DNA of 57,307 nucleotides from an uncultured Methanobrevibacter sp. (GTDB taxonomy: Archaea > Methanobacteriota > Methanobacteria > Methanobacteriales > Methanobacteriaceae): the NCBI RefSeq assembly GCF_902764455.1, contig NZ_CACWVY010000028.1, positions 1 through 57,307 of the forward strand. The letters run 5' to 3'. Position numbers and translations under genes: made by a program. Under the pieces are notes generated by a model. The model had not been told where the DNA came from. It did not search any database and saw only the letters and a list, made by a program, of their open reading frames with translations. The number at the start of each line of letters is the position of its first letter. Position 1 is the stretch's first letter. Shown in pieces: positions 30,164 through 45,781 of the stretch.

Positions 30164-30420
30164 TATGGCAAGTTAAAGACAGCTGCTGGTTTTTTAAACT
30201 AAGGAAACTCCGCCCATCACACAGAACTACGGCGTTGAAAAACGTATACTGAGAAGTATGACTCTGGAGCAGAAACGACACGGCTTTTAATGGTAGACGA
30301 TGATATTTAATTGAGGACATTAAAAAGAGCAAAGGTGCCGATGACAAACTGTATGAGGCAAGGTAGCACGCTAAGATGAATGCTGTTAAACAGAAGGTGG
30401 GTTACTCTTAACATGCCATA
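30164..30420 (+). ncRNA. rnpB: RNase P RNA (archaeal)
   Basis: This RNA is the catalytic part of RNase P, which trims tRNA 5' ends. The ends pair to form helix P1: TATGGCAaGTTAA (30164-30176) with TTAACaTGCCATA (30408-30420). Conserved RNase P regions are visible: AAGGAAACTCCGCCC near the 5' end, GACTCTGGAGCAGAAACGAC in the middle, GAGGCAAGGTAGCACGC, and the CR-V region ACAGAAGGTGGGTTAC near the 3' end. It is about 257 nt, usual for Methanobacteriales. It lies on the same strand as, and close behind, initiator tRNA-Met. Its 3' end is duplicated at 44041. Confidence 0.9.
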
Positions 30421-30432: not shown

Positions 30433-30487
30433 TCTATTTTTTTTCACTGTTGTGTACTTTCAAAAGATTAATATTACTTATTTTTAT
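30433..30487 (+). repeat. Dispersed intergenic repeat, copy A
   Basis: The sequence from TCTATTTTTTTTCACTG through CTTTCAAAAGATTAATATTA to TTTTTAT is repeated at 42552-42604 with only a few changes and a 2-nt shorter T run. A weaker third copy lies at 45081-45121. It sits directly after the RNase P RNA 3' end and before the mntA remnant. It is too short for an insertion sequence and has no ORF. Confidence 0.7.
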
Positions 30488-30512
30488 ATAATATATTACT
30501 TGGTGATTCATT

Positions 30513-30804
30513 ATGATTTATTCTAGAACAAATTAAACAAATTGCTATCCCTATTGTTAGTGAATATGGTATCGCTAGATTAGGTATTTTCGGGTCATAT
30601 GCTCGAGGAGAAGCAAATGAGGATAGTGATTTAGATTTTATAATGGATACAGATGGTTTAATTGGAATGATTCAATATAATGCTATAATTCGTAAATTAG
30701 AAGAGAAATTTGGATGTCATGTTGATATAATTACTACTGGATGTTCTGATAGGGAGTTTTTAACTAGAATCCAAAAAGAGGAGGTTTTAATTTATGAACG
30801 GTGA
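30513..30804 (+). pseudogene. MntA-type nucleotidyltransferase antitoxin, frame broken at its start
   Basis: From 30520 on, the frame codes for a minimal nucleotidyltransferase: LEQIKQIAIPIVSEYGI, then GIFGSYARGEANEDSDLDF, which carries the GS-x(n)-D-x-D catalytic motif of MntA. The protein ends IQKEEVLIYER. The ribosome-binding site GGTGA (30502) fits ATG 30513, but that ATG is one base out of frame and reads only seven codons. In the coding frame a TGA stands at 30514. Removing one base in ATTTATTC would restore M-I-Y-L-E-Q. Either the gene has a one-base insertion or it starts at ATT 30520. It overlaps the hepT remnant by 11 nt, the normal operon plan for this toxin-antitoxin type. Confidence 0.75.
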
Positions 30805-31128
30805 TGATAAAGAGAATTGAAATGATTCTGCATTATACTGTGATAAAATAGATAGTCATATTGAATATTTCGGTGATGATAAAGAATTGTTTTTGGAGAA
30901 TATTCATTATCAGGATGCATGTGCTTTAGTAATTATTCAAATTGGAGAACATGTTGATAGATTATCTGATGAATTCAAAAATAGTCATTCTGAGATTCCT
31001 TGGAGAGAAATTAAAGATATGAGAAATTTACATGCTCATAACTATGAATCTGTAATGTATGATATTTTGTGGGTAACTATTAAAGGGATGTTCCTGAACT
31101 TCGGGAATATCTTGAAAAATTAATCTGA
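30794..31128 (+). pseudogene. HepT-type (DUF86) HEPN toxin, disrupted
   Basis: HepT is a HEPN-fold ribonuclease toxin that MntA inactivates by AMPylation. The frame opens at ATG 30794 (MNGDDKEN), meets an in-frame TGA at 30818-30820, then continues ALYCDKIDSHIEYFGDD with the normal family body. It keeps the HEPN active motif in MRNLHAHNYE (R-x4-H). Near the end, TIKG is followed by a one-base deletion at about 31087-31090. Adding the base back gives DVPELREYLEKLI and a stop at 31126. One stop plus one frameshift indicate a dead gene, unless translation restarts at TTG 30887, which would still lack the proper ends. Confidence 0.75.
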
Positions 31129-31186
31129 TTTTGTTGAAAGTTAAGGTAGTTTTTAACATTAACTCATATGTAACCCACACGATTTT

Positions 31187-31211
31187 AAGTGACTTTTTCT
31201 TAACATACCAT
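31187..31211 (+). repeat. Degenerate third copy of the attachment-like repeat
   Basis: AAGTG followed by CTTAACATACCAT (31199-31211) matches the same two blocks in the right copy at 44034-44059, including the A that differs from the RNase P RNA gene. The middle has diverged. It lies between the hepT remnant and the giant adhesin. On its own a 13-bp identity in AT-rich DNA is weak, so the call is tentative. Confidence 0.4.
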
Positions 31212-31349
31212 GATTGATTATTTTTTCATTTTACTATTTTTTAAAACTTTTTTCTTGATAAAAATAAATATTCATTGTTTAATTTAATCATAAAGAATTT
31301 AATATCATAAATAATAAACATTTACATAATTATTGTGGATGTGTTAAAC

Positions 31350-34300
31350 ATGAATTTTAAGAGAATAATTTTAATTTCATTAATTCTATGTTTCTTGTCG
31401 TTTGCTTGTGTATCGGCAAGTGAAAATCAGACATCAATAGAAAATTCTAATCTTAATGCTGTTGGTGTGGTTGATGAGGATATTAATGAATATGATAACG
31501 TTATGTTTGCTGGAAAAAATGCTTCTGATGGTCGTGGTGTTGTCTCTGGGGAATTGCTTTCCAGTAGTAATGTTGATGATAAAAATACTACACTTTGTGA
31601 GGCCGTTGGAGAAAATGCTTCTGATGGTTGTGGTGTTGTCTCTGGGGAATTGCTTTCCAGTAGCAATGTAAATGATAAGTTGTCTGCTTCAAAGATGGGG
31701 ACCCGTGATGAATTGAATAATTTGGTTCTTGCTGCTAAAGAGGGTTCAACAATAACATTGGATAAGGATTATGATTTTTTAGGGGCTGTAAAACCTATTG
31801 AAATAACTAAAAGCATTGTAATTGATGGTAATGGACATACAATTACTCTTGGATATAATAATGCTTTTAATTTAGGAGATGGAGGAGCCATAATTGCTGA
31901 TGGGCAGTGTCCTTTTATAATTTCCAATTGTAAATTTATAAACTGCTCTAGAGGAGGTGTTGCAGGTGCAATTTCAGCACAGGCGAAATATAACTCCCAA
32001 ATTATTGATTGTACTTTTAAGAGATGTTATGCTTTTGGAGAGATGAAAACTGTTAGATGGGAAACCTCAGCCACTATGGTATCTACTGCATCCAGTTCTG
32101 GCGGTGCAATTTCAATTTCTGATTTGGTCACTGTTAAATCTTGTAGATTTGAAGATTGTTCGGCTGGAAATGGTGGTGCAATAAATGCATATGGTAAATG
32201 TCAAATACTTGATTGTGTTTTTGTTAAAAATCACGCAGGAAGAGCCGAATGTCTGCAGTCTTATGAGCATGGTGGTGCCATTTATCTTAAGGGTGGATCA
32301 GGTGCTTTAGTTAAGGGATGCACATTCAATGAAAATTCTGCTGGACGTTTTGGAGGCGCAATATCAATAGCTGCTAATGATGTTAGAATTGAGGATTGTG
32401 TTTTTAATTCTAACTATGTGGATGATAGCGTAAAACAAAAAGGTGGTGCAATATTTGTAGAATCAGATTCCAAGATTGGCGACACTGGTTTTCAAATAAC
32501 TCGGTGTACATTCAACAATAATGGATATGACGGCAATAAACATTACTGTAAATATGGTGGTGCAATATATTTTGATGAGAGAATTATTGTTGGGCATATT
32601 TCATATTGTAATTTTACAGGCAATGGTGCTTCAAAGGAGGGTGGTGCAGTCTATGCTTCATCTGATAGCAAATTCCTTAATTTTAAAGGATGTCTATTCA
32701 CCAAAAATAGAGTTGAAAAATATGGTGGAGGAATATATCTTGATTCTAAATCTTCAACCATAGTGGATTGTGCATTTGTCGAACAGCCTAATGCAATATA
32801 TTGCGACAATAAAGAATGCACTATTAAATTCTCCGCATTTTTAAAAAACAGCAATTATGACGTCTGGTCCACTAAAGAGATAAATATTGCGAACAATTGG
32901 TTTGGAAATACTATGGATAACAGGTATTACGATTTGGCTAAACTCAAAGGCAAAGCAGTTAACCTTAATAATAGGGAAAATTTGTATCTGGTTGCCACAT
33001 CTATGGATAAAAACTATCATGATGGACAGGAATCCACTGTTGATTTGAACTTCAGATATATGCGTGATTCTCCTACATCTGACAGTAAATTAGCTCCCTT
33101 TACTAATCCGGCGATTCGTTATGTTGTTAGTGGAGTAAATGCAAGGGCGGTTTCCGATAATCTTTATTTGGCAAACGGTAAATCCTCTTTTAAATTCTTG
33201 GCAGATCCTTTTACAAGTACACCTTCTATTACTGTGGATTGTTATGGTGCAAAACTGACTTTAAAGTTCAAGACAAATCCATATTCATTCACCGCTCTTC
33301 AGGTTGTTGTTAACAATTGTCAAAATAGAGTTTTAAATCTGGTTCATAATTATACTCGTGACAAATCTATCGATGGTGACATGGTCGTAACTATTTCAAA
33401 AGACCTAGTGATTAATGGTAACGGTTTTACTTTGGATTCAAAAAATAGTGGTGGAGTCTTTTTTATGAGTAACCGTCCTAATGTGGACATAAATAATTTG
33501 AACATTGTTAATAGTAAATCAAAGTGGGGTTCGGCCATTTGGGGTTATATAGATAATATGTCAGTCAATAACTGCAGGTTCATTAATTGTTCAGCAAAAT
33601 TTGAGGGGGGTGCGATTAATCTGGTTGGAAAAGTGCTTACAATAACCAATTCCACTTTCATTAACAATACGGCTGATGAAAATGGGGGCTCTTTGATAGT
33701 AATGGGTATTAATACTGTAATTAGGGATTGCATTTTCATTAATTCCAATTCTGGTATGGAGGGATGTTTCATTTATCTTCACGCTAGCAGCAGATTAAAT
33801 CTCACAGATTCCATATTGTTAACCAATTCAACATCAAATTATATTTCTAAGCCGGAGGGTGAATCACTACGATGGAATGTTTCAGCTAACATTGAGAACA
33901 ATTGGTTTGGCGGTACAAATGAGGATATATTAAAGAATTATGACATGCTTCGTGTGTTCCCTGTTAAGAGTTTGCTTTATCTGAATATCACACCTTCTCT
34001 CTATGATATTCCTGTAGGAGACAGTTCAAATATCACTCTTAAGTTTTACTCATATGATTTGAACTCAAGACAGGGGGTTCCGTTATCACGCGTCAGAAAC
34101 ATGAAATTTGGCGTTAGTCTGTTGGAAGAAGGAGGGACACTCAGCTCCGATTCAATCATGCTGACCAATAATGAGGGGAGTGTGGTGTATACTTCAAGTT
34201 CTGATGGTGAAATGCCTGTTGAAATCGATTATGAACTATTCAACCATGTACTCTCTCTTAATCAGTACCATGAAGGTTCTTTCACAGACCTTAAGCATCT

Positions 34301-37300
34301 GATTAGCAATTCTGGGGATGTTATAAATCTCACTAGGGATTATACTTTTTCTGTGATGTTCGATTATATGTTGATGGATGGTATTTACATTAATAAAGAT
34401 TTGACAATCAACGGTAATAACCATGTTATCGATGGTGACGGATGGGCTAGAATATTTAATATAGACGGACATAAAGTTGTTTTAAATAATATCACCTTTA
34501 TTAACGGTTATACTCCGGATAATGGTGGTGCGATTCAAACATCATCTCAAACTTCTTTGTCTATTAATTCCTGCAGATTCGAAAACAATTCTGCAAAAAA
34601 TGGTGGTGCAATTTATCTTAAATCCTATGAGAAGGTAAACATAGAATTTTCTGTCTTTAAAAACAATACTGCCAGTGCAAAAGGGGGTGCAATCTATTAT
34701 TATGGAGATTATCGAAGCAATACATTTTGCAACATAACAGGTACTTTTACAAATAACAAAGCATCAGATGACGGAGGTGCAATATATTTAATTGATGTGG
34801 CAAAATATCATCTTAAAGGTAATTTCACAAACAATGTCGCAGGAAAGAATGGTGGTGCAGTTTGTGCAGATGTCGCTCTTGCTATTTCAACATTTACCAT
34901 AGACGGTATTTTTGATTCAAATGCTGCAGCATACGGTGGTGCTGTTTATAGTTTTAATCCATTCGGTAACTTTACAGGAATCTATCAAAATAACAGGGCA
35001 TCCAAAGATGGTGGAGCAATTTATACAAACAGGTCCATATCATATTCCGGAAGATATAATCGTATCAGCGGAGAATTTTACGCCAATACTGCAAATGAGC
35101 AGGGAAGTGCAGTTTGTACAATGAATCTCAAACATAACGACATAGATTTATACAATTCCATTTTTATGAAAAATCATGGAAAATCCACAGTATATTCATC
35201 AGGTTATAGTTATCTTAATGTTCATGACTCCATTTTTGTTGAAAATATTGATAACAGAGTATTTGATACATCCCAGGTAGAGGTCGTTGACGGTCGTCTT
35301 AAAGCTTATAATAACTGGTTCGGCAATACTGTTGATAATTTTGATAGAAAGCCTTCTGTCGGTCCAAGAGTTTTATTGAATGATTGGATGTATGTAGATG
35401 TAGATTGCGGTAAAAGCGAAACCGATCTTAAATCTAAAAATAACATTATTTTTACATTGAAATCATATAACGCAAAAAAAGGAACAGTTTCAGATTATGC
35501 TGGCAACTTTAAACTTAATTTAAGCTTAAAATCAGGCACCGGCAACTTCAGTAGTGATTCCTTTATTTTAGGCAATGCCTCTGTTAAAGTTACATATGTT
35601 GCGAATGATTATGGTGAAAATACAGTTGTTGTTTTGGCAAATCTGTCAAAATATTCCCATAAGACATACGAAATTAAATATAATGTAGTTGAGCATCCTA
35701 GCGATTCATTTTATGCATTACAATATGAAATAGATCATATGAATGGAAATATCCTTAACTTAACTAATAATTATGCGTTCTATCCGGAAAGTGATGCTCC
35801 AAATGGAGTAAAAATTAACAAATCCATAACCATCAACGGAAATGGGTTTATCATTGACGGTAAAGACAGCTCCCGCATCTTTGATATTTCAGCAGACAAT
35901 GTTGTTCTGGAAAATGTCTCCCTAATCAACGGTAATGACATCAACGGCAGTGCAATATATGCTGAAGGCAACAATATCATAATAAGGAATTCCATTTTAT
36001 TGAATAACACTGGTGCGGTTATCTACGCTGTAAACTCGTTAAATGCAAATTACAACTGGTGGGGAAATACTGTAGACACTTTCAATAGGAAGGCCAATGT
36101 TAGTGATAATGTTGTTGTGGGCAATGCCCTATTTGCGAGTTTCAATGCAGATTCAAATATTATTGGTGCAGGCAATAGAACAACACTTACTTTAGATTTA
36201 ACTAATTTATATGATTTCAATTCAAAATCAAATTCAACTTATGATGGACTTAACCTATTTTCATTTGATTTTGAATCAGTTGACGGAAATATTAATGTCA
36301 CTTCAGATAAGATAAAAAAAGGAAAAATCTCTGTTTTATTTGAAGCTATTGGACCTTTTTATGGTGAAATTTATGCAAAATACAGAAATGTGGAGTTAAA
36401 ACATGAATTTGAAATAATTTATGATGACGATTCATTCACCGCTCTCTATACTTTGATAAATAAAACCGTTGTTAATGGTGTTGTTAATCTGACACATGAC
36501 TATAACTTTTATTATTATGATGTTGATTATGTCAGAAGCATCCCGATAAATAAGGCAGTGACAATCAATGGAAACGGATTTGCTATTAATGGAATGAATC
36601 AATCCAGCATATTTAATATATCTGCAGACAATGTCTCATTAAGTAATATTAATTTCTTGGATGCAATAAATGCCGTTGAGTGGGTTGGAAACAATGGGTC
36701 AATAAGCAATATTTCAGTGAATAATGTGGACTCCGCATTAATCTATTGCGGTTCTAACCTGGTTGTAAGGGATTCAAATTTCACCCAGGCCAGAATGTAT
36801 TCACTATATCTGGAAGGTTCAAATCATGTTGTTGACGGTTGTGAATTTGTAGATAATTCAGGATCTTCAATAATTGGATATGACGTATGCGATTTAAATA
36901 TTGATGATTCAGTATTTAACAATAATGGGCCTGATTCAAGCATTGTTGATTTTTCCTGGTGTAAAGATGTAAATATCACAGATTGCATATTCAATAATCA
37001 TAATAATCGATCCATTAATATTTTGCAGGGGTCAACTGTTTATTTGGCTAACAATACTCTTTCCGCATCAGATTATATTTTCAACGACGGAACTATTCTT
37101 TCAAAGACCTTTGCTCATTTGGATAATGTCAATTTAAATCATATGGTTGGTGACGTGATTTTATTAAATGCCACAATATATGATGATAATAATAATATCA
37201 TTTTAGTTGATGAGTTTAATTTCAAAATTAACGATGAACTTTTTGCAGCCGAGTTTTATATGGATGCATACGAGTACTTATGGAGATTATCAAATGGGTC

Positions 37301-40300
37301 TTGGATTGTTGTTGCGGATATAGATGAAGAATCCTTTGTAAATTGTACTGTCGACTCACTGGTAGTTAATGCATTAAAATATAATTCATCCGTTATAATT
37401 ACAAGTATTAGTGATGTTGTTTATGGTGAAAATGTAAAAATCGGTTTTGAGTTTGAAAACAGTACTGCAGTTCTGGTTACAGTTACCTTTAACTCAGAAG
37501 TGATATTCAATGAAACTGTAAAGGTCAATAACGTTTCCATTCCTAATTTGGGATCCGGATTTTATAATGTAGTAATCAGTACTTTAGAAAATGAATTTTA
37601 TCGTTCAAGCAGTGTTGCTTCAGATTTCAGAGTTAATAGAGCAGGTTCTTCATTAATTCTCGAGGAGATACTCGACACTTATTACGGCAAAGATATAATT
37701 GTTAATTTCACTGTTGAAAACAGAACCAGTGTTGTCGCTTCAATTTATAATATTGATACCAAGGAGTTTATTATCAACGACGTCGTTGAAGGTAATTTAT
37801 TTATCCTAAATAATTTGCCTGTAGGTTCATATGCAGTAACATTAACCAATATCATGGACATAAATTATAATCCTAGCGGAGATTATGCTGCATTCAATGT
37901 TTTAAAAGTTAATTCATCCATAATTCTTGATAATAAAACAGAATATATTTATGGCAATGTTGCAATCAGTTATGATGTTGATAATTTAACCAATGTTACT
38001 GTAACTGTTGTTGATTTGGAAAGTGGTGATGTATATAATTTCACAACTACAAACTCAACCATTAATCTTGATTGGGATGTTGGTTCCTATCAAATTACTG
38101 TGGTCAATATGGGAACTGAGAATGTTTTCGCCAGTCAGGATTCAAAAACATTCCTTGTCCTACCTGCAAATTCATCTGTTGAAATAGATGACATTGGTGA
38201 TGTGTATTATGGAGATGACATTGAAATTTACTTTGATGTAATCAATGCTACAAATGTTACTGTTATTGTAAAGGATGAAAACAATAGGGCTATTTATAAT
38301 AATAATACTAATGAAAGCTATTTTGATCTTTCAGATTTGGCTGTAGGTAAATACACTGTAGAAGTTTATAATTCAGGTTCCAATAATTTCAACCCTAGCA
38401 ACGACACTAAAACATTTTACGTATTGAAAGTCGGTTCATTAATAGAATTCAATTATTTAAATGTAACCTATTATGGAATGCCTTTCAGATTGGATTATGA
38501 TGTAGAAAACGAAACATTATTAAACCTCTGCATTTATGATTCCAAAGGATTTGTCATTTTTAATAAAAATTTCAATGAAATTAGTGAACTTCCAGAAGAT
38601 ATGTCTAATTTGACTGAAGAAGCTTATTTAGGTTATTATTTCTTTATTTATAGAAATTTAACAGTTGGAAACTATACTTTTGAGTTTACAAATCTGGGCA
38701 ATTCCAATGTCAGTGGAAATAAGGTTAACGGTAGTTTTGAAATTATAAAGGTCCCTTCCTATGTTGAAATTCTTGTTGATTCAATTGTATATGGCGATGA
38801 TTTGGAAGTCTACATTGATGTTGTTAATGCTACAACCGTAAATATTATGATTAAAAATGATGTTGGAGCTATTGTTTATGATGAGAACATAACTAGTTCT
38901 CCAGTCATTGTCAGTGATTTGATTCCGGGCAATTATACAGTTATTGTTACTAATTACGGCACTGAAAATGTAATTGGAAATTCATCATCTGAAGAGTTCT
39001 GCGTGTATAAGCTCAATTCCACTGTTAAATTGAATAATATCTCCGATATTTATTATGAAGATGCAGTTTTAATTGAGTTTGATGTTGAAAATAAAACTGT
39101 TGTAAATGTCAGAATCCAAAATCAAGATGGTGAAGTTGTCTATGATAATAATGTAACTTCTGATGTGCTTCTGATTCCTAATTTGAATGTTGGAAATTAT
39201 ACTCTAACCGTTACAAATATGGAAGCATTTAATATTAGTGAAAGCGCTGATTCAAAATCATTCAGAGTTTTAAAAAGAAGCATTAACATCACGGTAGCTG
39301 TTGAAGATAATGTGTATGGTGAGTTAAGTGTTATTAATGTAATTTCTGATATTGATGGTATGTTGTCTGTTAATTTAGGCAATCAACAATTGCTTGTTGG
39401 TGTAATGGATGGTCATGGAAAGGTCATGATTAATCTTGATGCGGGAAATTACACTGCTCATGTCAATTATACTGATGATAACTATGACATTAACATGACT
39501 GGCTGTTCATTTACCGTATATAAAGCTGATGTTGATTTAAGCGTTGAGGTTTTAGATAAGGTTTATTCTGCTGATGTTGATGGTAATGTGTTTGCCAGTC
39601 TTGACGGGGAGTATACTGTTGTTATTGGAGATTATAGTGTTCCTGTGACTGTTTTGAATGGTGTTGGTGCATTTGATGTTGGTGTTTTAAATGTTGGAAA
39701 CTATACTGTTCGTGTGATATTTGCCGGAAATGATAATTATAACTCCAATGTTAATAAAAGCGCTTTTGAGGTTACTCAGTCTGAAACCAATTTCAATATT
39801 GTTGCTAATGAAAGCAATATCACTTATGGAAATTCAATAAATGTTACTCAAAGTCTTCCTGGTGATGCAACAGGTACTATAACTTATTCCTTTGCTAATG
39901 GAACTGTAATTAATGTTTTAAATGTTGATGAATCATTTGTTTTATCTGGTCTGGATGTTGGATCTTATGTGGTTTATGCTAATTATTCTGGTGATTCTAA
40001 TTATGCTCCTGCAAGGGACAGTTTAACAATTGATGTCAATAAGGCCGTTAATAATATTCTTGTATTTGGTCAGGATGCGACATATCTTGGGAATTCAACT
40101 ATTACTGTTGTGGCTGATGTTGATGGGGAATATTATGTTGGTGTTGGCGATAAAATAGTTGTTGTTATTGTTTCAAATGGTATTGGAGTGAATACAATAG
40201 CTTTAGATGTTGGAACTTACTCTGCTGATGTCGAATACATTAACGCAAATTATGTGAATAATGTCACAAGCATTCCGTTTACTGTTGCTAAATCGGATGT

Positions 40301-42092
40301 TAATTTAAGCGTTGAGGTTTTGGATGTCGTTTATTCTGTCGATGTTGATGGTAATGTATTTGCAAGTCTTGACGGTAAATATGATGTAATCATTGGTGAT
40401 ACTTTAAAAGTTGTGAGTGTTAAAAATGGTATAGGTACTTTTAATTTTGGTGTTTTGGATGTTGGAAACTATACTGTTCGTGTGATATTTGCCGGAAATG
40501 AAAACTATAGTGCAAATTCAAACGTTTCAACTTTCAAAGTTACTTCTACTGGCACTAAATTTAATGTTATTGCTAATAGTACAGAAATAACTTATGGAGA
40601 AGCCATTAACATTACTCAAAGTCTTCCAGTCAATGTAACAGGCAATGTAACTTATGGATTTGCAAACGGAACAATAATCAAGGTCCTTGATGTTGGAGAA
40701 TCATTTGTTTTATCAGGATTGGATGCAAAATCTTATGTAATTTATGCTAATTACTCTGATTCCAATTACCCTTCCGCACTTGATAGTATAACAGTTGTGG
40801 TTAATAAAGCGATTAATAATGTTGTAGTGAGTGCAAACAGTGTTACATGTCCTGATAATGTTACAGTCAATGTTAAAGCAGACATTGATGGAATTTATAT
40901 TGTTTCTGTTGGTGGAAATTCCTTTGAGGTTAATGTTGTAAACGGTAATGGAAGTATTAGTGTCTCTTTAGGAGTTGGAGATTACAGTACTCTCACTTAT
41001 TCTGATAATCCTAATTATGAAACTAATATTCAAGAGGCTAAATTCAATGTATTGTCTGTTGAAGATTATGACTTTGGTTTCAATATGATTGATAAGACTG
41101 TCATTTTCCATGCTCCGAGTGATGCTACTGGAAATTTAACTCTTGTTGCAGGTAACACAACATATGTTGCCCGTTTAGAAAATGGTACTGCGGAGATTAC
41201 AGCCAATGAATTGATAGAAGGATCAAATGTTGTTGGAATCGCTTATTCAGGTGATAGTAAATATGCGCCAAGAAGTTATTCAAGCATTTTTGTTGTCAAT
41301 ACAATGATTGTAACTTCTGATATGACTCGCGGATATAATAGTGGTGTTGATTATCAGGTTAAAATCGTTGATAATAATGGAAATCCATTGAAAAATAAGT
41401 ATGTGACATTCACCATAAATAATAGAAAATACATTTCTAGCACCAATGAGAATGGTATTGCTAAACTCAATGTTAAACTTCGTGTTGGAACATATAATGT
41501 AATAGTCAATTTAGATGGTGGTAAAAATGTTACAAAGAAACTTAAGATAGTTAAAAGAATTACAGGCAATAAGAATGTTGTAAAATATTACAATAGCAAC
41601 TTTAAATATAAATTTAAAGTTATTGGTAATGATGGTAAGGCTGTTGGTAAGGGAGTAAAGGTAACTGTAAAAATTGGTAAAAAAACCTACAGGCTCAAAA
41701 CAGATAAAAAAGGTTACATTACTATCCGGTTAACTAAAAAATTCACTCCTAAAAAATATACTATAAAAGCAGCTTACAAAGGATATTCTGTTAAAAATAA
41801 GATTAAGGTTAAGGGCGTAATATTCAGTAAAAAAACAGTCAAAATCAAGAAATCTTCAAGAAAACTTGTCTTGAAGGCAAAACTTAAACAAGGTAAAAAA
41901 CTCCTCAAAAATAAAAAAGTGATATTTAAGTTTAAAGGTAAAAAATACAAAGTTAAAACCAACAAAAAGGCAATAGCTAAAGTAACCATTAAACGAAATG
42001 TCATTAAAAAGCTGAAGGTAGGTAAAAAATATAGATTCAAAGTAACTTACCTGAAAAGTAGTATAAATAGAACAGTTAAAGTAAAAAGATAG
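31350..42092 (+). CDS. Giant secreted adhesin-like protein (beta-helix and Ig-like repeats)
   Basis: About 3580 residues. The signal peptide is FKRIILISLILCFLSFACVSA. I chose ATG 31350 over the in-frame GTG 31335, which lies before the basic n-region. Five right-handed beta-helix regions (about residues 125-515, 650-850, 970-1320, 1455-1567, 1695-1930) show repeats of the kind C-x-F-x-x-N-x-A-x-x-x-GGAI. Four of them end in N-x-W-(F/W)-G-(N/G)-T (near 514, 849, 1320, 1567), followed by an Ig-like domain. Residues about 2010-3317 hold some 15 Ig-like units of ~85 residues. The last ~260 residues are very rich in Lys and Gly-Lys turns and may bind the cell wall. No sortase-like or membrane anchor is visible. 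It is probably a surface protein for contact with host or partner cells. Confidence 0.88.
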   Translation: MNFKRIILISLILCFLSFACVSASENQTSIENSNLNAVGVVDEDINEYDNVMFAGKNASDGRGVVSGELLSSSNVDDKNTTLCEAVGENASDGCGVVSGELLSSSNVNDKLSASKMGTRDELNNLVLAAKEGSTITLDKDYDFLGAVKPIEITKSIVIDGNGHTITLGYNNAFNLGDGGAIIADGQCPFIISNCKFINCSRGGVAGAISAQAKYNSQIIDCTFKRCYAFGEMKTVRWETSATMVSTASSSGGAISISDLVTVKSCRFEDCSAGNGGAINAYGKCQILDCVFVKNHAGRAECLQSYEHGGAIYLKGGSGALVKGCTFNENSAGRFGGAISIAANDVRIEDCVFNSNYVDDSVKQKGGAIFVESDSKIGDTGFQITRCTFNNNGYDGNKHYCKYGGAIYFDERIIVGHISYCNFTGNGASKEGGAVYASSDSKFLNFKGCLFTKNRVEKYGGGIYLDSKSSTIVDCAFVEQPNAIYCDNKECTIKFSAFLKNSNYDVWSTKEINIANNWFGNTMDNRYYDLAKLKGKAVNLNNRENLYLVATSMDKNYHDGQESTVDLNFRYMRDSPTSDSKLAPFTNPAIRYVVSGVNARAVSDNLYLANGKSSFKFLADPFTSTPSITVDCYGAKLTLKFKTNPYSFTALQVVVNNCQNRVLNLVHNYTRDKSIDGDMVVTISKDLVINGNGFTLDSKNSGGVFFMSNRPNVDINNLNIVNSKSKWGSAIWGYIDNMSVNNCRFINCSAKFEGGAINLVGKVLTITNSTFINNTADENGGSLIVMGINTVIRDCIFINSNSGMEGCFIYLHASSRLNLTDSILLTNSTSNYISKPEGESLRWNVSANIENNWFGGTNEDILKNYDMLRVFPVKSLLYLNITPSLYDIPVGDSSNITLKFYSYDLNSRQGVPLSRVRNMKFGVSLLEEGGTLSSDSIMLTNNEGSVVYTSSSDGEMPVEIDYELFNHVLSLNQYHEGSFTDLKHLISNSGDVINLTRDYTFSVMFDYMLMDGIYINKDLTINGNNHVIDGDGWARIFNIDGHKVVLNNITFINGYTPDNGGAIQTSSQTSLSINSCRFENNSAKNGGAIYLKSYEKVNIEFSVFKNNTASAKGGAIYYYGDYRSNTFCNITGTFTNNKASDDGGAIYLIDVAKYHLKGNFTNNVAGKNGGAVCADVALAISTFTIDGIFDSNAAAYGGAVYSFNPFGNFTGIYQNNRASKDGGAIYTNRSISYSGRYNRISGEFYANTANEQGSAVCTMNLKHNDIDLYNSIFMKNHGKSTVYSSGYSYLNVHDSIFVENIDNRVFDTSQVEVVDGRLKAYNNWFGNTVDNFDRKPSVGPRVLLNDWMYVDVDCGKSETDLKSKNNIIFTLKSYNAKKGTVSDYAGNFKLNLSLKSGTGNFSSDSFILGNASVKVTYVANDYGENTVVVLANLSKYSHKTYEIKYNVVEHPSDSFYALQYEIDHMNGNILNLTNNYAFYPESDAPNGVKINKSITINGNGFIIDGKDSSRIFDISADNVVLENVSLINGNDINGSAIYAEGNNIIIRNSILLNNTGAVIYAVNSLNANYNWWGNTVDTFNRKANVSDNVVVGNALFASFNADSNIIGAGNRTTLTLDLTNLYDFNSKSNSTYDGLNLFSFDFESVDGNINVTSDKIKKGKISVLFEAIGPFYGEIYAKYRNVELKHEFEIIYDDDSFTALYTLINKTVVNGVVNLTHDYNFYYYDVDYVRSIPINKAVTINGNGFAINGMNQSSIFNISADNVSLSNINFLDAINAVEWVGNNGSISNISVNNVDSALIYCGSNLVVRDSNFTQARMYSLYLEGSNHVVDGCEFVDNSGSSIIGYDVCDLNIDDSVFNNNGPDSSIVDFSWCKDVNITDCIFNNHNNRSINILQGSTVYLANNTLSASDYIFNDGTILSKTFAHLDNVNLNHMVGDVILLNATIYDDNNNIILVDEFNFKINDELFAAEFYMDAYEYLWRLSNGSWIVVADIDEESFVNCTVDSLVVNALKYNSSVIITSISDVVYGENVKIGFEFENSTAVLVTVTFNSEVIFNETVKVNNVSIPNLGSGFYNVVISTLENEFYRSSSVASDFRVNRAGSSLILEEILDTYYGKDIIVNFTVENRTSVVASIYNIDTKEFIINDVVEGNLFILNNLPVGSYAVTLTNIMDINYNPSGDYAAFNVLKVNSSIILDNKTEYIYGNVAISYDVDNLTNVTVTVVDLESGDVYNFTTTNSTINLDWDVGSYQITVVNMGTENVFASQDSKTFLVLPANSSVEIDDIGDVYYGDDIEIYFDVINATNVTVIVKDENNRAIYNNNTNESYFDLSDLAVGKYTVEVYNSGSNNFNPSNDTKTFYVLKVGSLIEFNYLNVTYYGMPFRLDYDVENETLLNLCIYDSKGFVIFNKNFNEISELPEDMSNLTEEAYLGYYFFIYRNLTVGNYTFEFTNLGNSNVSGNKVNGSFEIIKVPSYVEILVDSIVYGDDLEVYIDVVNATTVNIMIKNDVGAIVYDENITSSPVIVSDLIPGNYTVIVTNYGTENVIGNSSSEEFCVYKLNSTVKLNNISDIYYEDAVLIEFDVENKTVVNVRIQNQDGEVVYDNNVTSDVLLIPNLNVGNYTLTVTNMEAFNISESADSKSFRVLKRSINITVAVEDNVYGELSVINVISDIDGMLSVNLGNQQLLVGVMDGHGKVMINLDAGNYTAHVNYTDDNYDINMTGCSFTVYKADVDLSVEVLDKVYSADVDGNVFASLDGEYTVVIGDYSVPVTVLNGVGAFDVGVLNVGNYTVRVIFAGNDNYNSNVNKSAFEVTQSETNFNIVANESNITYGNSINVTQSLPGDATGTITYSFANGTVINVLNVDESFVLSGLDVGSYVVYANYSGDSNYAPARDSLTIDVNKAVNNILVFGQDATYLGNSTITVVADVDGEYYVGVGDKIVVVIVSNGIGVNTIALDVGTYSADVEYINANYVNNVTSIPFTVAKSDVNLSVEVLDVVYSVDVDGNVFASLDGKYDVIIGDTLKVVSVKNGIGTFNFGVLDVGNYTVRVIFAGNENYSANSNVSTFKVTSTGTKFNVIANSTEITYGEAINITQSLPVNVTGNVTYGFANGTIIKVLDVGESFVLSGLDAKSYVIYANYSDSNYPSALDSITVVVNKAINNVVVSANSVTCPDNVTVNVKADIDGIYIVSVGGNSFEVNVVNGNGSISVSLGVGDYSTLTYSDNPNYETNIQEAKFNVLSVEDYDFGFNMIDKTVIFHAPSDATGNLTLVAGNTTYVARLENGTAEITANELIEGSNVVGIAYSGDSKYAPRSYSSIFVVNTMIVTSDMTRGYNSGVDYQVKIVDNNGNPLKNKYVTFTINNRKYISSTNENGIAKLNVKLRVGTYNVIVNLDGGKNVTKKLKIVKRITGNKNVVKYYNSNFKYKFKVIGNDGKAVGKGVKVTVKIGKKTYRLKTDKKGYITIRLTKKFTPKKYTIKAAYKGYSVKNKIKVKGVIFSKKTVKIKKSSRKLVLKAKLKQGKKLLKNKKVIFKFKGKKYKVKTNKKAIAKVTIKRNVIKKLKVGKKYRFKVTYLKSSINRTVKVKR
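31515..31676 (+). repeat. N-terminal 96-bp-spaced duplication in the giant adhesin
   Basis: The segment coding NASDGRGVVSGELLSSSNVD (from about 31518) is followed 96 bp later by NASDGCGVVSGELLSSSNVN (from about 31614). The nucleotide match over ~60 bp is almost perfect (a few substitutions), so the duplication is recent. It lies between the signal peptide and the first beta-helix. Confidence 0.85.
39523..40512 (+). repeat. 256-residue repeat unit in the Ig-like region of the giant adhesin
   Basis: Two nearly identical blocks start with SVEVLDxVYSxDVDGNVFAS (about 39541 and 40309, 768 bp apart) and include GNYTVRVIFAGN. Each block leads into a FNIVAN/FNVIAN unit and a third Ig-like unit before the order repeats. 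So the repeating element is a trio of Ig-like domains, with DNA identity high enough to allow recombination. Confidence 0.8.
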
Positions 42093-42114
42093 GGATGTCT
42101 CACCCTATTTTTTT
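42090..42114 (+). terminator. Terminator after the giant adhesin
   Basis: TAGGG (42090-42094) and CCCTA (42103-42107) form a short stem with an 8-nt loop, followed by a run of seven Ts and further T-rich DNA. The stem overlaps the adhesin stop codon. Confidence 0.6.
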
Positions 42115-42437
42115 AATTTTTTTTAATAAAGTGCAGTATTTTGTTTGCTTCTTTTTTTAAAATAGTTTTTTTGTTAATTCTTATCATTTAATTTGGCGTA
42201 ATTTTAAGGATTATGGGATGTTTGAAAGACCTTCCTGGAGCTATGTATATAAGGGCACAATCTGATTCTGTCTCTTTTTATTTTAATTTTTGGGTATTAG
42301 CTTTTTCGATGTTGTATTCGCATAATAATCCTATATATATATCTAATTTTAATTTTTTAGTGCTTTCAGTATTTCCATTGTCGTTTATATGTCTTTATAT
42401 TTTCTGTAACTTTTAATCTTCTAAATCAAGTATGTCA

Positions 42438-42560
42438 TTAATTTTCATTATTTATAAATGGTTTTTGTTTTTTCCCAATTCTGACTATATCTGAAGGAAT
42501 AACTCCAAATTCTTTATATATTTCATCAAATACAGTATCGTATTGATTATATCTATTTTT
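42438..42560 (-). pseudogene. C-terminal remnant of an unidentified gene
   Basis: On the reverse strand about 40 codons read KNRYNQYDTVFDEIYKEFG then VIPSDIVRIGKKQKPF and a double stop. Composition and amphipathic pattern look like real protein, but there is no start, and the frame closes at 42561, within repeat copy B. I interpret it as the tail of a gene cut off at the repeat boundary. The family is not recognised. Confidence 0.4.
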
Positions 42561-42604
42561 TCACTGTTGTGCACTTTCAAAAGATTTAATATAACTTATT
42601 TTTA
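42543..42604 (+). repeat. Dispersed intergenic repeat, copy B
   Basis: The core TCTATTTTTTCACTGTTGTG (from 42552) plus CACTTTCAAAAGATTTAATA matches copy A at 30433-30487 nearly base for base. The preceding TTGATTAT also matches copy C at 45081. It lies between the gene remnant and the AAA ATPase promoter. Confidence 0.7.
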
Positions 42605-42751
42605 TTCAATTTAATTTCTTGGATATCTACCATATTTTATTGCTTTCATTATGTAAAATTGATTTTAATTGGTTATTAGATAATTTTAAATACATTAAAT
42701 TATACATTAACTATTAACTTAATCTATTTTGATATTTTATAGGTGTTTTGC

Positions 42752-43954
42752 ATGGATATTTCAGAAAAAGAATCTTTATTTCAACCTGGTCAACCTGTAA
42801 GTCCAGATAGGTTTGAAGGTAGGGAAGATATTATTAAAGAGATTTTAAAATATTTTCCAGCTGTTAGGTCTGGCAATCCTCAGCATTTTTTCATCACTGG
42901 AAAAAGAGGCATGGGTAAAACCTCTTTAGCTAATTATATTTCTGATTTTGCTCATAATAATTATTCAATGGTTACAGCACATATTATGAATGATGGGGTT
43001 CATGATATTGATGAATTGGTTGTTCAAATAATTGAAAGAGTTTTAAATGCCATTAGGCCTGAGAAGTGGTCTAGTAAGATTTTTAATCTCATTGGCAATT
43101 ACATAGATTCTGTTGGTTTTGGTGGATTAAACATCAAATTTAACCCTCCAAAAGATGAATTAAAGAATATTAAAGATAATTTAGCATTTTATTTGTCTGA
43201 TCTGGTAAATAATTTTAAGGATAAGGATGGGTTATTTATTGTAATCGATGATATCAATGGATTGTCTGAAACATCTGAATTTGCTAATTGGTATAAAAGT
43301 TTTGCAGATACTCTTGCAACTTCAGTTAAAAATGTGCCCATTTGCATAATGTTGACTGGTTATCCTGAAAAATTCAGGAGATTATATGACCATAATCCTT
43401 CTGTAAATAGAATATTCCACACTCATGAACTGAAGGCTTTATCAGATGAGGATGTTGAAACTTTCTATACTGCAATTTTTTCTTTATATAATATGGATAT
43501 ATCATCTTCTGCTTTAGATAATATGACTAAATATTCTTCTGGAATGCCAACAATGATGCAAGAAATTGGTGATGCGACTTTTTGGAAAGATACGGATGGG
43601 TATATTGATAATGATGATGCTTTTGGTGGGATAATAGAAGCTGGAAATAGAATTGGTTTGAAATATTTGCAGCCATTACTTGAAAATAAAATTAGAAGTG
43701 AAAACTATTTATCTTTATTTAAGAAAATTGGTAAAAAATTAGCTGCATCTCCAAACAGCACTTTTACTAAAAATGAATTTGAGGATGTTCTAAACGAATC
43801 AGAATCAAATGTATTTAAAGATTTCATCAGTCGATCAAGAAAATTGGGAATAATTGAACTGGCTAGTTCTAAAAGACAGGGAGAATATCAATTTACAAAT
43901 CAACTGTATCCAATTTATTTTTTAATTCAGTCGGTTTTAGAAGAACAAGAATAA
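42752..43954 (+). CDS. AAA-type ATPase with C-terminal winged-helix region
   Basis: A 400-residue ATPase of the archaeal STAND/Orc1-Cdc6-like group. Walker A is GKRGMGKTSLANY near residue 50 and Walker B is LFIVIDDINGL near 165. An arginine-rich sensor region follows (FRRLYDHNPSVNRIFHTHELK). The last ~120 residues (NEFEDVLNESESNVFKDF then SRKLGIIELASSKRQGEYQF) look like a winged helix. ATG 42752 follows AGGTG by 6 nt; the GTG 42743 in frame overlaps that site. Similar proteins occur as solitary genes in archaeal islands. The role is unknown; DNA binding or defence is possible. Confidence 0.7.
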   Translation: MDISEKESLFQPGQPVSPDRFEGREDIIKEILKYFPAVRSGNPQHFFITGKRGMGKTSLANYISDFAHNNYSMVTAHIMNDGVHDIDELVVQIIERVLNAIRPEKWSSKIFNLIGNYIDSVGFGGLNIKFNPPKDELKNIKDNLAFYLSDLVNNFKDKDGLFIVIDDINGLSETSEFANWYKSFADTLATSVKNVPICIMLTGYPEKFRRLYDHNPSVNRIFHTHELKALSDEDVETFYTAIFSLYNMDISSSALDNMTKYSSGMPTMMQEIGDATFWKDTDGYIDNDDAFGGIIEAGNRIGLKYLQPLLENKIRSENYLSLFKKIGKKLAASPNSTFTKNEFEDVLNESESNVFKDFISRSRKLGIIELASSKRQGEYQFTNQLYPIYFLIQSVLEEQE

Positions 43955-44033
43955 ATATATGCTCATATACAGTATTTTTGATATTGTTGGAAATTTAGAG
44001 GTAATTCTTGAAATTTTACTAACTTGGATAATT

Positions 44034-44071
44034 AAGTGCAGTTACTCTTAACATACCATAAATATTAATTA
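44034..44071 (+). repeat. Attachment-like direct repeat, right copy
   Basis: GTTACTCTTAACATACCATA and the next 11 bp (44041-44071) copy the 3' end and flank of the RNase P RNA gene (30401-30431) with one mismatch. No other part of the RNA gene is present here. AAGTG at 44034 matches the degenerate copy at 31187. It lies 193 nt of non-coding DNA after the ATPase region begins and before the CPBP gene. Confidence 0.7.
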
Positions 44072-44147
44072 TTTTCTTATTTTAAGTAATTTCAACAGTT
44101 TTAGAATTATTTTTATATGGTGGAGGGATATAAATTTAAATGAGATT

Positions 44148-45014
44148 ATGTTGGATAGAATTAAATATTTTGCAGATAATTCTGAAACATTAAAGCAAGC
44201 ACGCATTAACGTTGAAGAAATCTCACCTATAAAAGAAATAGGAATTTTTATCGCTTTATTTTTAGTGTTATGTGTCTTTTTGCTTATATTTCAGTATATA
44301 TTCTGGATTTTCAGTCCAATTAATGAGGCTACGTTTTTTTCTTTGGGAGGATTTATAGCTGTTCCTTTTGTTATATATTTCTTTGTTACTAAAATAGAAA
44401 AACGCAGTTGGAGAAGCATTGGATTTTCTAAAGGAAATGCATTTTTTTCAACATTAAAAGGTTTAATAATTGGTTTTTTAATGTTTTCGGCAATTGTTGC
44501 AGTAGGGATGCTTCTTGGACAATTCACTTTTGACGGATATGATTTATCTTCACTGGTTTATATAATTCCATGTTTTGTAATATTTGTAATCCAATGTTTT
44601 GGTGAAGAAATATATACTCGCGGATGGACAATGACTTATTTTTATAAAAGGCATAGCATATTTCTTTCAATACTGATAAACAGCATAATTTTTCTAATTC
44701 CTCATTTATCTAATCTGGGTATTGATTTGGTATCTATTGTCAATATTTTCATCATCGGTATTGTATTTGCGGTGATGTTTTTGAGATTTGACAATATTTG
44801 GATTTGCTGCGGTGCTCATACAGCATGGAATTTTTCACAGGGAATCATATACGGATTTAATGTAAGCGGCATATCAACTCCGACATTATTGAAATGTAGT
44901 CACACGGGTCAAAATTTAATTAATGGTGGTGTTTTTGGACCTGAATCAGGTTTAATTGCAACTTTTGTAATCATTATTGCATTAATTTTAGTTGTTTATT
45001 GGCCTAAACATTAA
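44148..45014 (+). CDS. CPBP-family intramembrane metalloprotease
   Basis: A 288-residue polytopic protein with CPBP motifs CFGEEIYTRGWTMT (Glu-Glu and Arg), FLIPHLSN (His) and CGAHTAWNFSQG (His, Asn). About eight hydrophobic segments are visible. A cytoplasmic N-terminal segment precedes the first one. It differs strongly from the CPBP protein at 8623. A strong GGAGGG (44122-44127) lies 20 nt before ATG 44148, unusually far. A 17-codon open frame beginning at ATG 44140 fits that site better and overlaps the gene start, so a short upstream ORF may be translated first. The substrate is unknown. Confidence 0.82.
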   Translation: MLDRIKYFADNSETLKQARINVEEISPIKEIGIFIALFLVLCVFLLIFQYIFWIFSPINEATFFSLGGFIAVPFVIYFFVTKIEKRSWRSIGFSKGNAFFSTLKGLIIGFLMFSAIVAVGMLLGQFTFDGYDLSSLVYIIPCFVIFVIQCFGEEIYTRGWTMTYFYKRHSIFLSILINSIIFLIPHLSNLGIDLVSIVNIFIIGIVFAVMFLRFDNIWICCGAHTAWNFSQGIIYGFNVSGISTPTLLKCSHTGQNLINGGVFGPESGLIATFVIIIALILVVYWPKH

Positions 45015-45080
45015 AAATTTTAAAATATTTGAATCCTGTCTTTGTTTATATGGCCCTATGATTTTAGATGCTTTTGACAA

Positions 45081-45121
45081 ATTGATTATTTTCTATTTTT
45101 TTACATTTGTGCACTTCCAAA
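45081..45121 (+). repeat. Dispersed intergenic repeat, diverged copy C
   Basis: ATTGATTATTTTCTATTTTT then TGTGCACTTCCAAA matches copy B (42543 on) with several changes. It lies between the CPBP gene and the convergent TetR gene. A small stem TTTGTG...CACAAA is formed at its end. Confidence 0.45.
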
Positions 45122-45178
45122 CACAAAATTCAATTAAAGATTTTGTGCCCTATCTTCAAAGATTAAAAAAATACTTTT

Positions 45179-45781
45179 TTACTGGCATTCGATGGCCTGC
45201 CAAGTCATTTCAAAGTTTCTCTCAAAAATTAAATCAATATCATCATTTGGGAAATTTAACCAGAAATATTGAGTTCCCATATACATGATATACAAAGATT
45301 CTACAATGTCTTTAGTTGTGAAGTCATTAGAGATTTCATTTTGCCTTTTGCCATCTTCGACAAGGCCGGTTAAAAATTTTCTAACATCATTTCCTGTTTG
45401 TGAAACTATGCTATTAACATCATCATTTGCATAGCCAATTCCAGTTAAAAGAAGTACTACACTGGCATAATTGATTTTTTCATCTATGCTTTCAATTTCC
45501 ACACCATTTATGTAGTGATGTAACACATGACACAATGTGTCATGGATTCTGTCCTTTGATGAACCTTCGAGGATGATTTTATCAAAATCGACTTTAATAT
45601 AATCCACCATATACTTTTGAAGAATTGCTTCAAATAATTTGCTTTTATCTGAAAAATGATAATATATGCCGCCTGTTGTAAGTCCGGTATAATTTCGAAT
45701 TTCACTGATTGAAATATCAACTGATTCTTTCTCCAATATTAATTTCAGCGTTTTTTCAACAATCAAATCTTTGGTGTTCAT
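45179..45781 (-). CDS. TetR-family transcriptional regulator (1)
   Basis: A 200-residue TetR/AcrR repressor. The N-terminal HTH reads SISEIRNYTGLTTGGIYYHF followed by SDKSKLFEAIL, the normal TetR start. The C-terminal ligand domain is helical with the conserved tail KDIVESLYIMYMGTQYFW. It is a clear paralogue of the next gene (MNTK start, GGIY.HFS and IVESL.IMYMG.QY are shared). It starts 31 nt after that gene ends, on the same strand. The ligand is unknown. Confidence 0.9.
   Translation of the reverse strand: MNTKDLIVEKTLKLILEKESVDISISEIRNYTGLTTGGIYYHFSDKSKLFEAILQKYMVDYIKVDFDKIILEGSSKDRIHDTLCHVLHHYINGVEIESIDEKINYASVVLLLTGIGYANDDVNSIVSQTGNDVRKFLTGLVEDGKRQNEISNDFTTKDIVESLYIMYMGTQYFWLNFPNDDIDLIFERNFEMTWQAIECQ

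Follow-up and report, generated by a model that had tools for sequence, protein, structure and literature searches.

A conserved promoter-like motif precedes toxin-antitoxin modules and some AAA-ATPase genes in Methanobrevibacter

Three copies of a conserved promoter-like motif

We analyzed a 57,307-nucleotide (nt) contig from an uncultured Methanobrevibacter sp. (NCBI RefSeq assembly GCF_902764455.1, contig NZ_CACWVY010000028.1; this whole stretch is called the window below), in which a sequence-only reading had noted a short dispersed repeat in three copies, designated A, B and C. Comparison across the genus suggests that the repeat is very probably a conserved archaeal promoter region, one that heads toxin-antitoxin (TA) operons and some AAA-ATPase genes. 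Its position, its orientation and the breadth of its occurrence strongly support a promoter/operator of TA modules; transcription from the motif, and the regulation of that transcription, we infer from these sequence features. The three copies are as follows.

30436-30476, + strand: copy A, predicted promoter/upstream element of a decayed pair of MntA-type nucleotidyltransferase (MNT) antitoxin and HEPN toxin genes; GTGTAC where B has GTGCAC
42554-42594, + strand: copy B, predicted orphan promoter element, intact; the top-scoring copy listed for the window's genome
45094-45121, + strand: copy C, diverged partial copy between two convergent genes, with the upstream block and without the half resembling a B recognition element (BRE) and TATA box

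The core of the motif, CACTGTTGTGCACTTTCAAAAG, occurs exactly at 42562-42583 (B) and with one mismatch at 30445-30466 (A), and had no match in 100 dinucleotide-preserving shuffles of the window. Repeat finding placed all three copies in one family across 30 nt, with A 90% and C 87% identical to B. The similarity of A to B extends through the AAAAGATTTAATATA part, which is missing from C, and the TATA-like part of A is one base shorter than that of B. A motif model built from 15 motif copies, including A and B and excluding C, gave E-values of 8e-14 for B, 4.1e-10 for A and 4.5e-4 for C, whereas the next-best place in the window scored 0.12; C is therefore a real but partial copy. All three copies are intergenic and lie on the + strand. 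The initial description of A and B as nearly identical, of C as diverged and of all copies as lying outside genes is thus borne out. A 28-nt pattern derived from the three copies, allowing up to 3 mismatches, found only the A, B and C sites in the 2.75-Mb genome, and more diverged copies are present elsewhere in it (C17:808 and C62:8467). The near-identical form is thus limited to three sites in this genome, yet the motif is conserved in relatives, with 74 strong matches in the genus as detailed below, which is not the pattern of a simple local duplication that the sequence-only reading had named as its refutation.

The full motif spans about 44 bp and joins an upstream block to a BRE/TATA-like stretch, GAAAATATTTATTATT. 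Most copies have an upstream block of consensus GTGTTTTTTCATAAAGTCGCACTT; A and B carry a GTGCAC variant of it (A reading GTGTAC, as listed above). GAAAATATTTATTATT is the consensus across 71 matches, and is made up of an A-rich BRE-like box and, behind it, an AT-rich TATA-like stretch. In rows anchored on the motif itself, conservation is about 1.1-1.35 bits per base in the consensus GTGTTTTTTCATAAAGTCGCACTTTGAAAATATTTATTATT; over the preceding 70 nt it amounts to 0.04-0.12 bit per base, and downstream it begins at 0.64 and declines to 0.06. At 45 of the 52 loci measured, the start codon lies 54-62 nt (about 57 nt) beyond the TATA-like position. Searching with the upstream block in isolation from the TATA-like part yielded 54 matches in 30 of 67 genomes; the same letters reversed yielded none.

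Archaeal promoters carry a BRE and a TATA box, with the transcript start expected about 25 nt downstream of the TATA box, and archaeal regulators commonly bind where the upstream block sits. The TATA-like part would be expected to recruit the basal transcription machinery and the upstream block to act as a regulator site. A TATA-like part combined with a block at the usual regulator position makes a regulated promoter of these modules the most likely identity of the motif. The resemblance to a BRE/TATA promoter covers the TATA-like stretch, the preceding A-rich box, the conserved upstream block and the narrow start-codon distance, but here the upstream block is common to several TA types and ATPases.

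Distribution and downstream genes

We searched 67 genomes of the genus with the motif model, using filters that may miss weak matches. The motif was found at E<=0.01 in 58 of them, and 74 strong matches (E<=1.1e-5) came from 37. Of the 71 strong matches examined (all but G081:C4, G002:C16:89331 and G035:C236), 61 are followed on their own strand, at most 400 nt away, by a TA or AAA gene: 36 MNT/HEPN, 19 zeta TA, 1 VapBC-like and 5 AAA, with copy B among the last. On the opposite side of the motif, such a gene was present at none of the 70 matches that have sequence there. Omitting the 15 training loci left 46 of 56 matches with such a gene (22 MNT/HEPN, 19 zeta, 1 VapBC-like, 4 AAA); the training set contained no zeta or VapBC-like locus. 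Pfam domains identified in representative downstream genes were NTP_transf_2, HepT-like, HEPN, Zeta_toxin, PIN, AAA_16 and AAA_14. An order-level sample of 149 genomes gave matches at E<=1e-5 in 36, 34 of which belong to the window's genus.

Several observations weigh against this assignment or narrow it. The model was trained mostly on sequences upstream of MNT genes, and the MNT share of the downstream genes is therefore partly circular. Seven of the 52 measured distances (33, 45, 47, 48, 49, 50 and 87 nt) fall beyond the 54-62 nt range. Ten of the 71 examined matches lack such a gene over 400 nt, two being at contig ends (G087:C15 and G065:C22) and eight having other genes, some of which look ordinary as far as their sequence can be read: a sugar nucleotidyltransferase in G083 and an RPA-like gene in G082. 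Neither is the motif universal: among 44 MNT loci of one family, 43 have upstream sequence, and 21 of these 43 scored above the top of 1075 shuffles, one of the 21 (L154) with the motif at an atypical distance. Finally, all seven homologues of the ATPase gene behind B that are 53-93% identical to it lack the motif.

Other genes behind the eight unclassified matches encode a DUF4062 protein, one with an integrase match below threshold and, by sequence reading only, an acyltransferase-like fragment. Among the zeta-class loci (L190, L179, L222 and others), where Pfam confirmed the zeta toxin domain at one, a protein of ~65 residues precedes the zeta-toxin-like gene in 3 of 5 loci read in detail. 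This small protein has no Pfam or NCBIfam match and may be the antitoxin. A small gene of ~90-110 residues (LDEVLDLLENLDESQIKESRHF...) lies behind the upstream block in L240 (G072) and L254 (G090); the L254 form has no Pfam match, and the LDEVLDLLENLDESQIKESRHF gene is a possible unrecognized TA component.

In a wider search, the core pattern had six exact matches in species genome contigs, three in Methanobrevibacter and three in bacteria; the latter (Kaistella, Erysipelotrichaceae and Clostridia; L138, L139 and L140) may be chance occurrences. Viral contigs held no exact match to the motif. Phage records gave 6 weak matches, the best at 41 bits. The portions available of the open-access literature on MNT-HEPN systems, on TA systems and promoters in Methanobrevibacter and on shared TA operators do not name the motif.

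Copy A precedes a decayed MntA/HepT pair

Copy A, judged from the sequence that follows it, would serve as promoter to a decayed MntA/HepT pair placed directly after rnpB.

30517-30801, + strand: MNT remnant behind A; 88% identity over query residues 3-97, the relative's protein matching PF01909
30794-31125, + strand: HepT-type HEPN toxin remnant, found by tblastn, the relative's protein matching PF01934

The MNT remnant is an open frame, but has no ATG, GTG or TTG at the position where its orthologues start. The HEPN remnant is interrupted by a stop codon in frame near residue 9 and shifts frame near residue 97; its RX4HXY motif is still legible as RNLHAHNY. The orthologues of the pair in G009 carry PF01909 and PF01934; against the NCBIfam equivalog models for MntA and HepT they reach 38.1 and 27.6 bits, short of the cut-offs of 60. 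The genes behind A and their orthologues resemble the HepT-MntA type VII TA system in their NTP_transf_2 and HepT-like domains and in RX4HXY, and depart from it in that the window's pair is broken and the relative's proteins miss the equivalog cut-offs.

Searching 61 genomes with a 26-nt pattern (up to 3 mismatches) located the motif in five, one of them the window's own. Three of the four relatives' loci found in this way have rnpB; the fourth, in G001, starts where its contig starts, and there the motif is preceded by sequence like the 3' end of rnpB. We also read the sequence after rnpB for 60 of 61 RNase P matches, several of which were too short to judge. In the window's genome, G009, G035, G067 and G069, 34-46 nt separate rnpB from the core downstream of it, and G026 has a decayed form; an orthologous MNT gene follows in all six. 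Other arrangements were also seen: the motif precedes a different MNT family in G001 and an MNT-type gene near a contig end in G034, and in G019 it precedes a diverged MNT (58% identical to that of G009) and is 1048 nt away from rnpB. Recognizable versions of the motif also precede some of the related MNT genes at other loci.

Copies B and C are candidate orphan promoters

The genes adjoining B and C are listed here.

42743-43954, + strand: AAA_16 ATPase behind B (Pfam)
44148-45014, + strand: Rce1-like CAAX protease, the last unit before C (Pfam)
45179-45781, - strand: TetR-family regulator, right flank of the extra segment described below (Pfam)

Copy B lies upstream of the AAA_16 ATPase gene, and C between the CAAX protease gene and the convergent TetR gene. 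DNA homology with the ATPase gene's 93%-identical relative begins at 42638, after B, and covers ~100 nt before the gene. As the seven close homologues lack the motif, B, though intact, was rejected as the ancestral promoter of the ATPase, on whose gene it could nonetheless act. Among 22 more distant ATPase loci, 5 have the motif, 15 do not and 2 have too little upstream sequence; the five with the motif are 38-40% identical and carry it 45-46 nt before the start. No MNT/HEPN remnants were found at B or C at E<=1. Copies B and C would be orphan promoters in the apparent insertion hot spot behind rnpB, most likely relics of modules since lost or replaced. Directly after C, where the CAAX protease and TetR genes converge, a 9-bp stem with an 8-nt loop is predicted at 45122-45147.

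An apparent insertion array behind rnpB

The remaining features of the neighborhood concern rnpB and copies of its 3' end.

30168-30416, + strand: rnpB, the archaeal RNase P RNA gene (archaeal-family match), with a tRNA before it
31168-31226, + strand: decayed distal repeat resembling an attachment site, with a GTAACCCAC arm joined to a copied rnpB 3' end; it closes the MNT-HEPN cassette on the right
31335-42092, + strand: 3585-codon open reading frame (ORF), second unit of the array
44033-44075, + strand: another distal copy, covering the rnpB 3' end and its flank, with an unrecognizable left arm

In G065 a TetR gene directly follows rnpB, and window positions 30450-45175 (14.7 kb) are absent; the TetR gene therefore marks the right flank of an extra segment, which appears to have been inserted here, although this comparison alone would also fit a loss in G065. 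The 3585-codon ORF, which may be adhesin-like judging by its repeats, has a homologous stretch 3.4 kb after rnpB in G085 (L086).

Downstream of rnpB, 19 sites in 15 genomes, that at 31168 in the window included, carry a duplicate of the rnpB 3' end and, with it, a complementary arm capable of forming a hairpin, and partial sites exist besides; 15 of the sites seeded the search that found them. This unit-end repeat takes the form GGTAACCCAC..GATTTT..GTGGGTTAC, hairpin-capable and joined to the copy of the rnpB 3' end. Among 91 matches to it listed genus-wide, 78 were on the rnpB contig (rnpB ends counted) and 13 elsewhere, in part on contigs that may be continuations broken off in assembly. Over the 19 sites, 75.5% of cells in the 11-pair hairpin are paired, as against 30-35% when slid, with 13 double changes as against 5.0 in shuffles. 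Counts of pairs with a double change and of further pair types were no higher than in shuffles (350 and 462 of 500), and at 14 of the 19 sites pair 8-27 does not form.

Similar cassettes occur at different positions and in changed order among species, including an 86-residue protein (G075, G066 and G007), LtrA (G087 and G031) and DUF2115 (G019 and G066). A 599-residue tyrosine recombinase with PF00589 (Phage_integrase) is encoded by the gene next after rnpB in three genomes (G066, L066 16744-18540; G006:C1:59080-60876; G082:C5:54565-56361), the G006 and G082 proteins being 96-98% identical to that of G066, with partial or distant homologues elsewhere. It has no homologue at E<=1e-15 in the window's genome. 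Recombinase fragments follow rnpB in G014 and G088, and the island behind the recombinase ends in an MNT-HEPN pair in G066 and in G006 (where the HEPN gene is the one called). The 3' end of rnpB is, on this comparative reading, an apparent insertion hot spot. The open-access literature yielded no paper describing rnpB, or any RNase P RNA gene, as an integration or attachment site.

The closest parallel for the rnpB neighborhood may be an archaeal integron cassette array (PMC9668308, in the portion available). The apparent likeness lies in small successive cassettes after rnpB that end in a hairpin-capable repeat, and in a tyrosine recombinase after rnpB in 3 genomes; here, however, the target is rnpB, and the hairpin repeat is distinct from the 50-bp repeat.

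The sole RNase P match of the window's genome is without 32 nt that four aligned relatives keep. The rnpB contigs of G001 and G025 end where that same stretch ends, and an assembly fault in the window's rnpB is therefore possible.

Alternative explanations for the repeat

Of the alternatives raised by the sequence-only reading, a recombination site would make A and C direct repeats left by an integrated 14.7-kb element, with B an internal junction. The absence of 30450-45175 from G065, where rnpB stands directly before the TetR gene, is what such an element would predict. In G076 a hairpin repeat is followed 12 nt later by the motif, and the flank upstream of C resembles the rnpB flank, ranking 9 among 11454 overlapping window positions (15 with a shorter query). 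With the same two queries, however, the flank before B ranks 341 and 1067 of 11454; about 9 of the 74 strong matches are linked to rnpB, and the repeat copied at cassette ends is a different sequence. We consider it very unlikely that the motif is the attachment site, and rejected it in favor of the rnpB-end repeat with its hairpin arm. The suggestion of a recombination site thus holds for the neighborhood, A and C bracketing the segment missing in G065, but fails for the motif itself. The G065 gap, the rnpB-end repeats and the recurring cassettes together place A, B and C within an apparent insertion array in which the motif would be cargo.

A role in RNA, as a terminator or regulatory RNA, was also proposed, and the motif of A does begin 20 nt after rnpB and contains eight Ts that could end the rnpB transcript. 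RNA folds of A, B and C were not better than those of shuffles, however (z 0.47, 0.62 and -1.11), Rfam gave no family match at E<=1 between 30420 and 45180, and other genomes are T-rich after rnpB without having the motif. An RNA element was rejected on these grounds and a terminator is very unlikely, though A may both terminate rnpB and start the next gene; the proposed regulatory character survives as that of a DNA promoter/operator before TA genes. A miniature inverted-repeat or other small mobile element would share with the motif its shortness, dispersal, intergenic placement and proximity to accessory DNA. Against it stand the sharp upstream boundary, the near-fixed start-codon spacing and the single orientation; no inverted arms of at least 24 nt were seen at A, B or C (among the 25 pairs listed of 31), and the RNA folds of A and B, as noted, do not exceed shuffles. 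This is the least probable of these explanations, to the point of being scarcely credible.

Who reads the upstream block

If the motif is a promoter, two accounts of its regulation must be weighed. The usual description of TA modules is that each governs its own promoter. The block may thus be an operator read separately by each module's antitoxin, with similarity maintained by descent and by the exchange of promoter pieces and with no common regulator. Different MNT genes stand behind near-identical promoters at one spot (G001 compared with G009 and G019), as promoter exchange would give. Similar blocks head MNT, zeta-type, VapBC-like and AAA-ATPase modules of different Pfam families, which is harder to reconcile with separate reading. 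In Shewanella, the MNT antitoxin of the SO_3165-SO_3166 MNT-HEPN operon binds its own promoter, with palindromes nearby, according to the accessible part of PMC4621449. That promoter too heads an MNT-HEPN operon, but in Methanobrevibacter similar promoters, known here from sequence, also head other module types. Separate autoregulation is a plausible account, if somewhat short of an even chance.

Alternatively, one dedicated regulator outside the TA modules could read the block in front of all four kinds of module (MNT-HEPN, zeta, VapBC-like and AAA-ATPase) and fire or silence them jointly, captured cassettes such as those at rnpB joining the group through their promoter. We put this forward tentatively; the likelihood that each antitoxin regulates its own module is no lower.

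Under either account, a promoter block common to unrelated TA types in one archaeal genus would let group command of TA and ATPase modules be tested. The motif also offers a sequence handle for unrecognized TA or defense genes in gut and rumen methanogens, the candidates being those behind the eight unclassified matches that lie away from contig ends.

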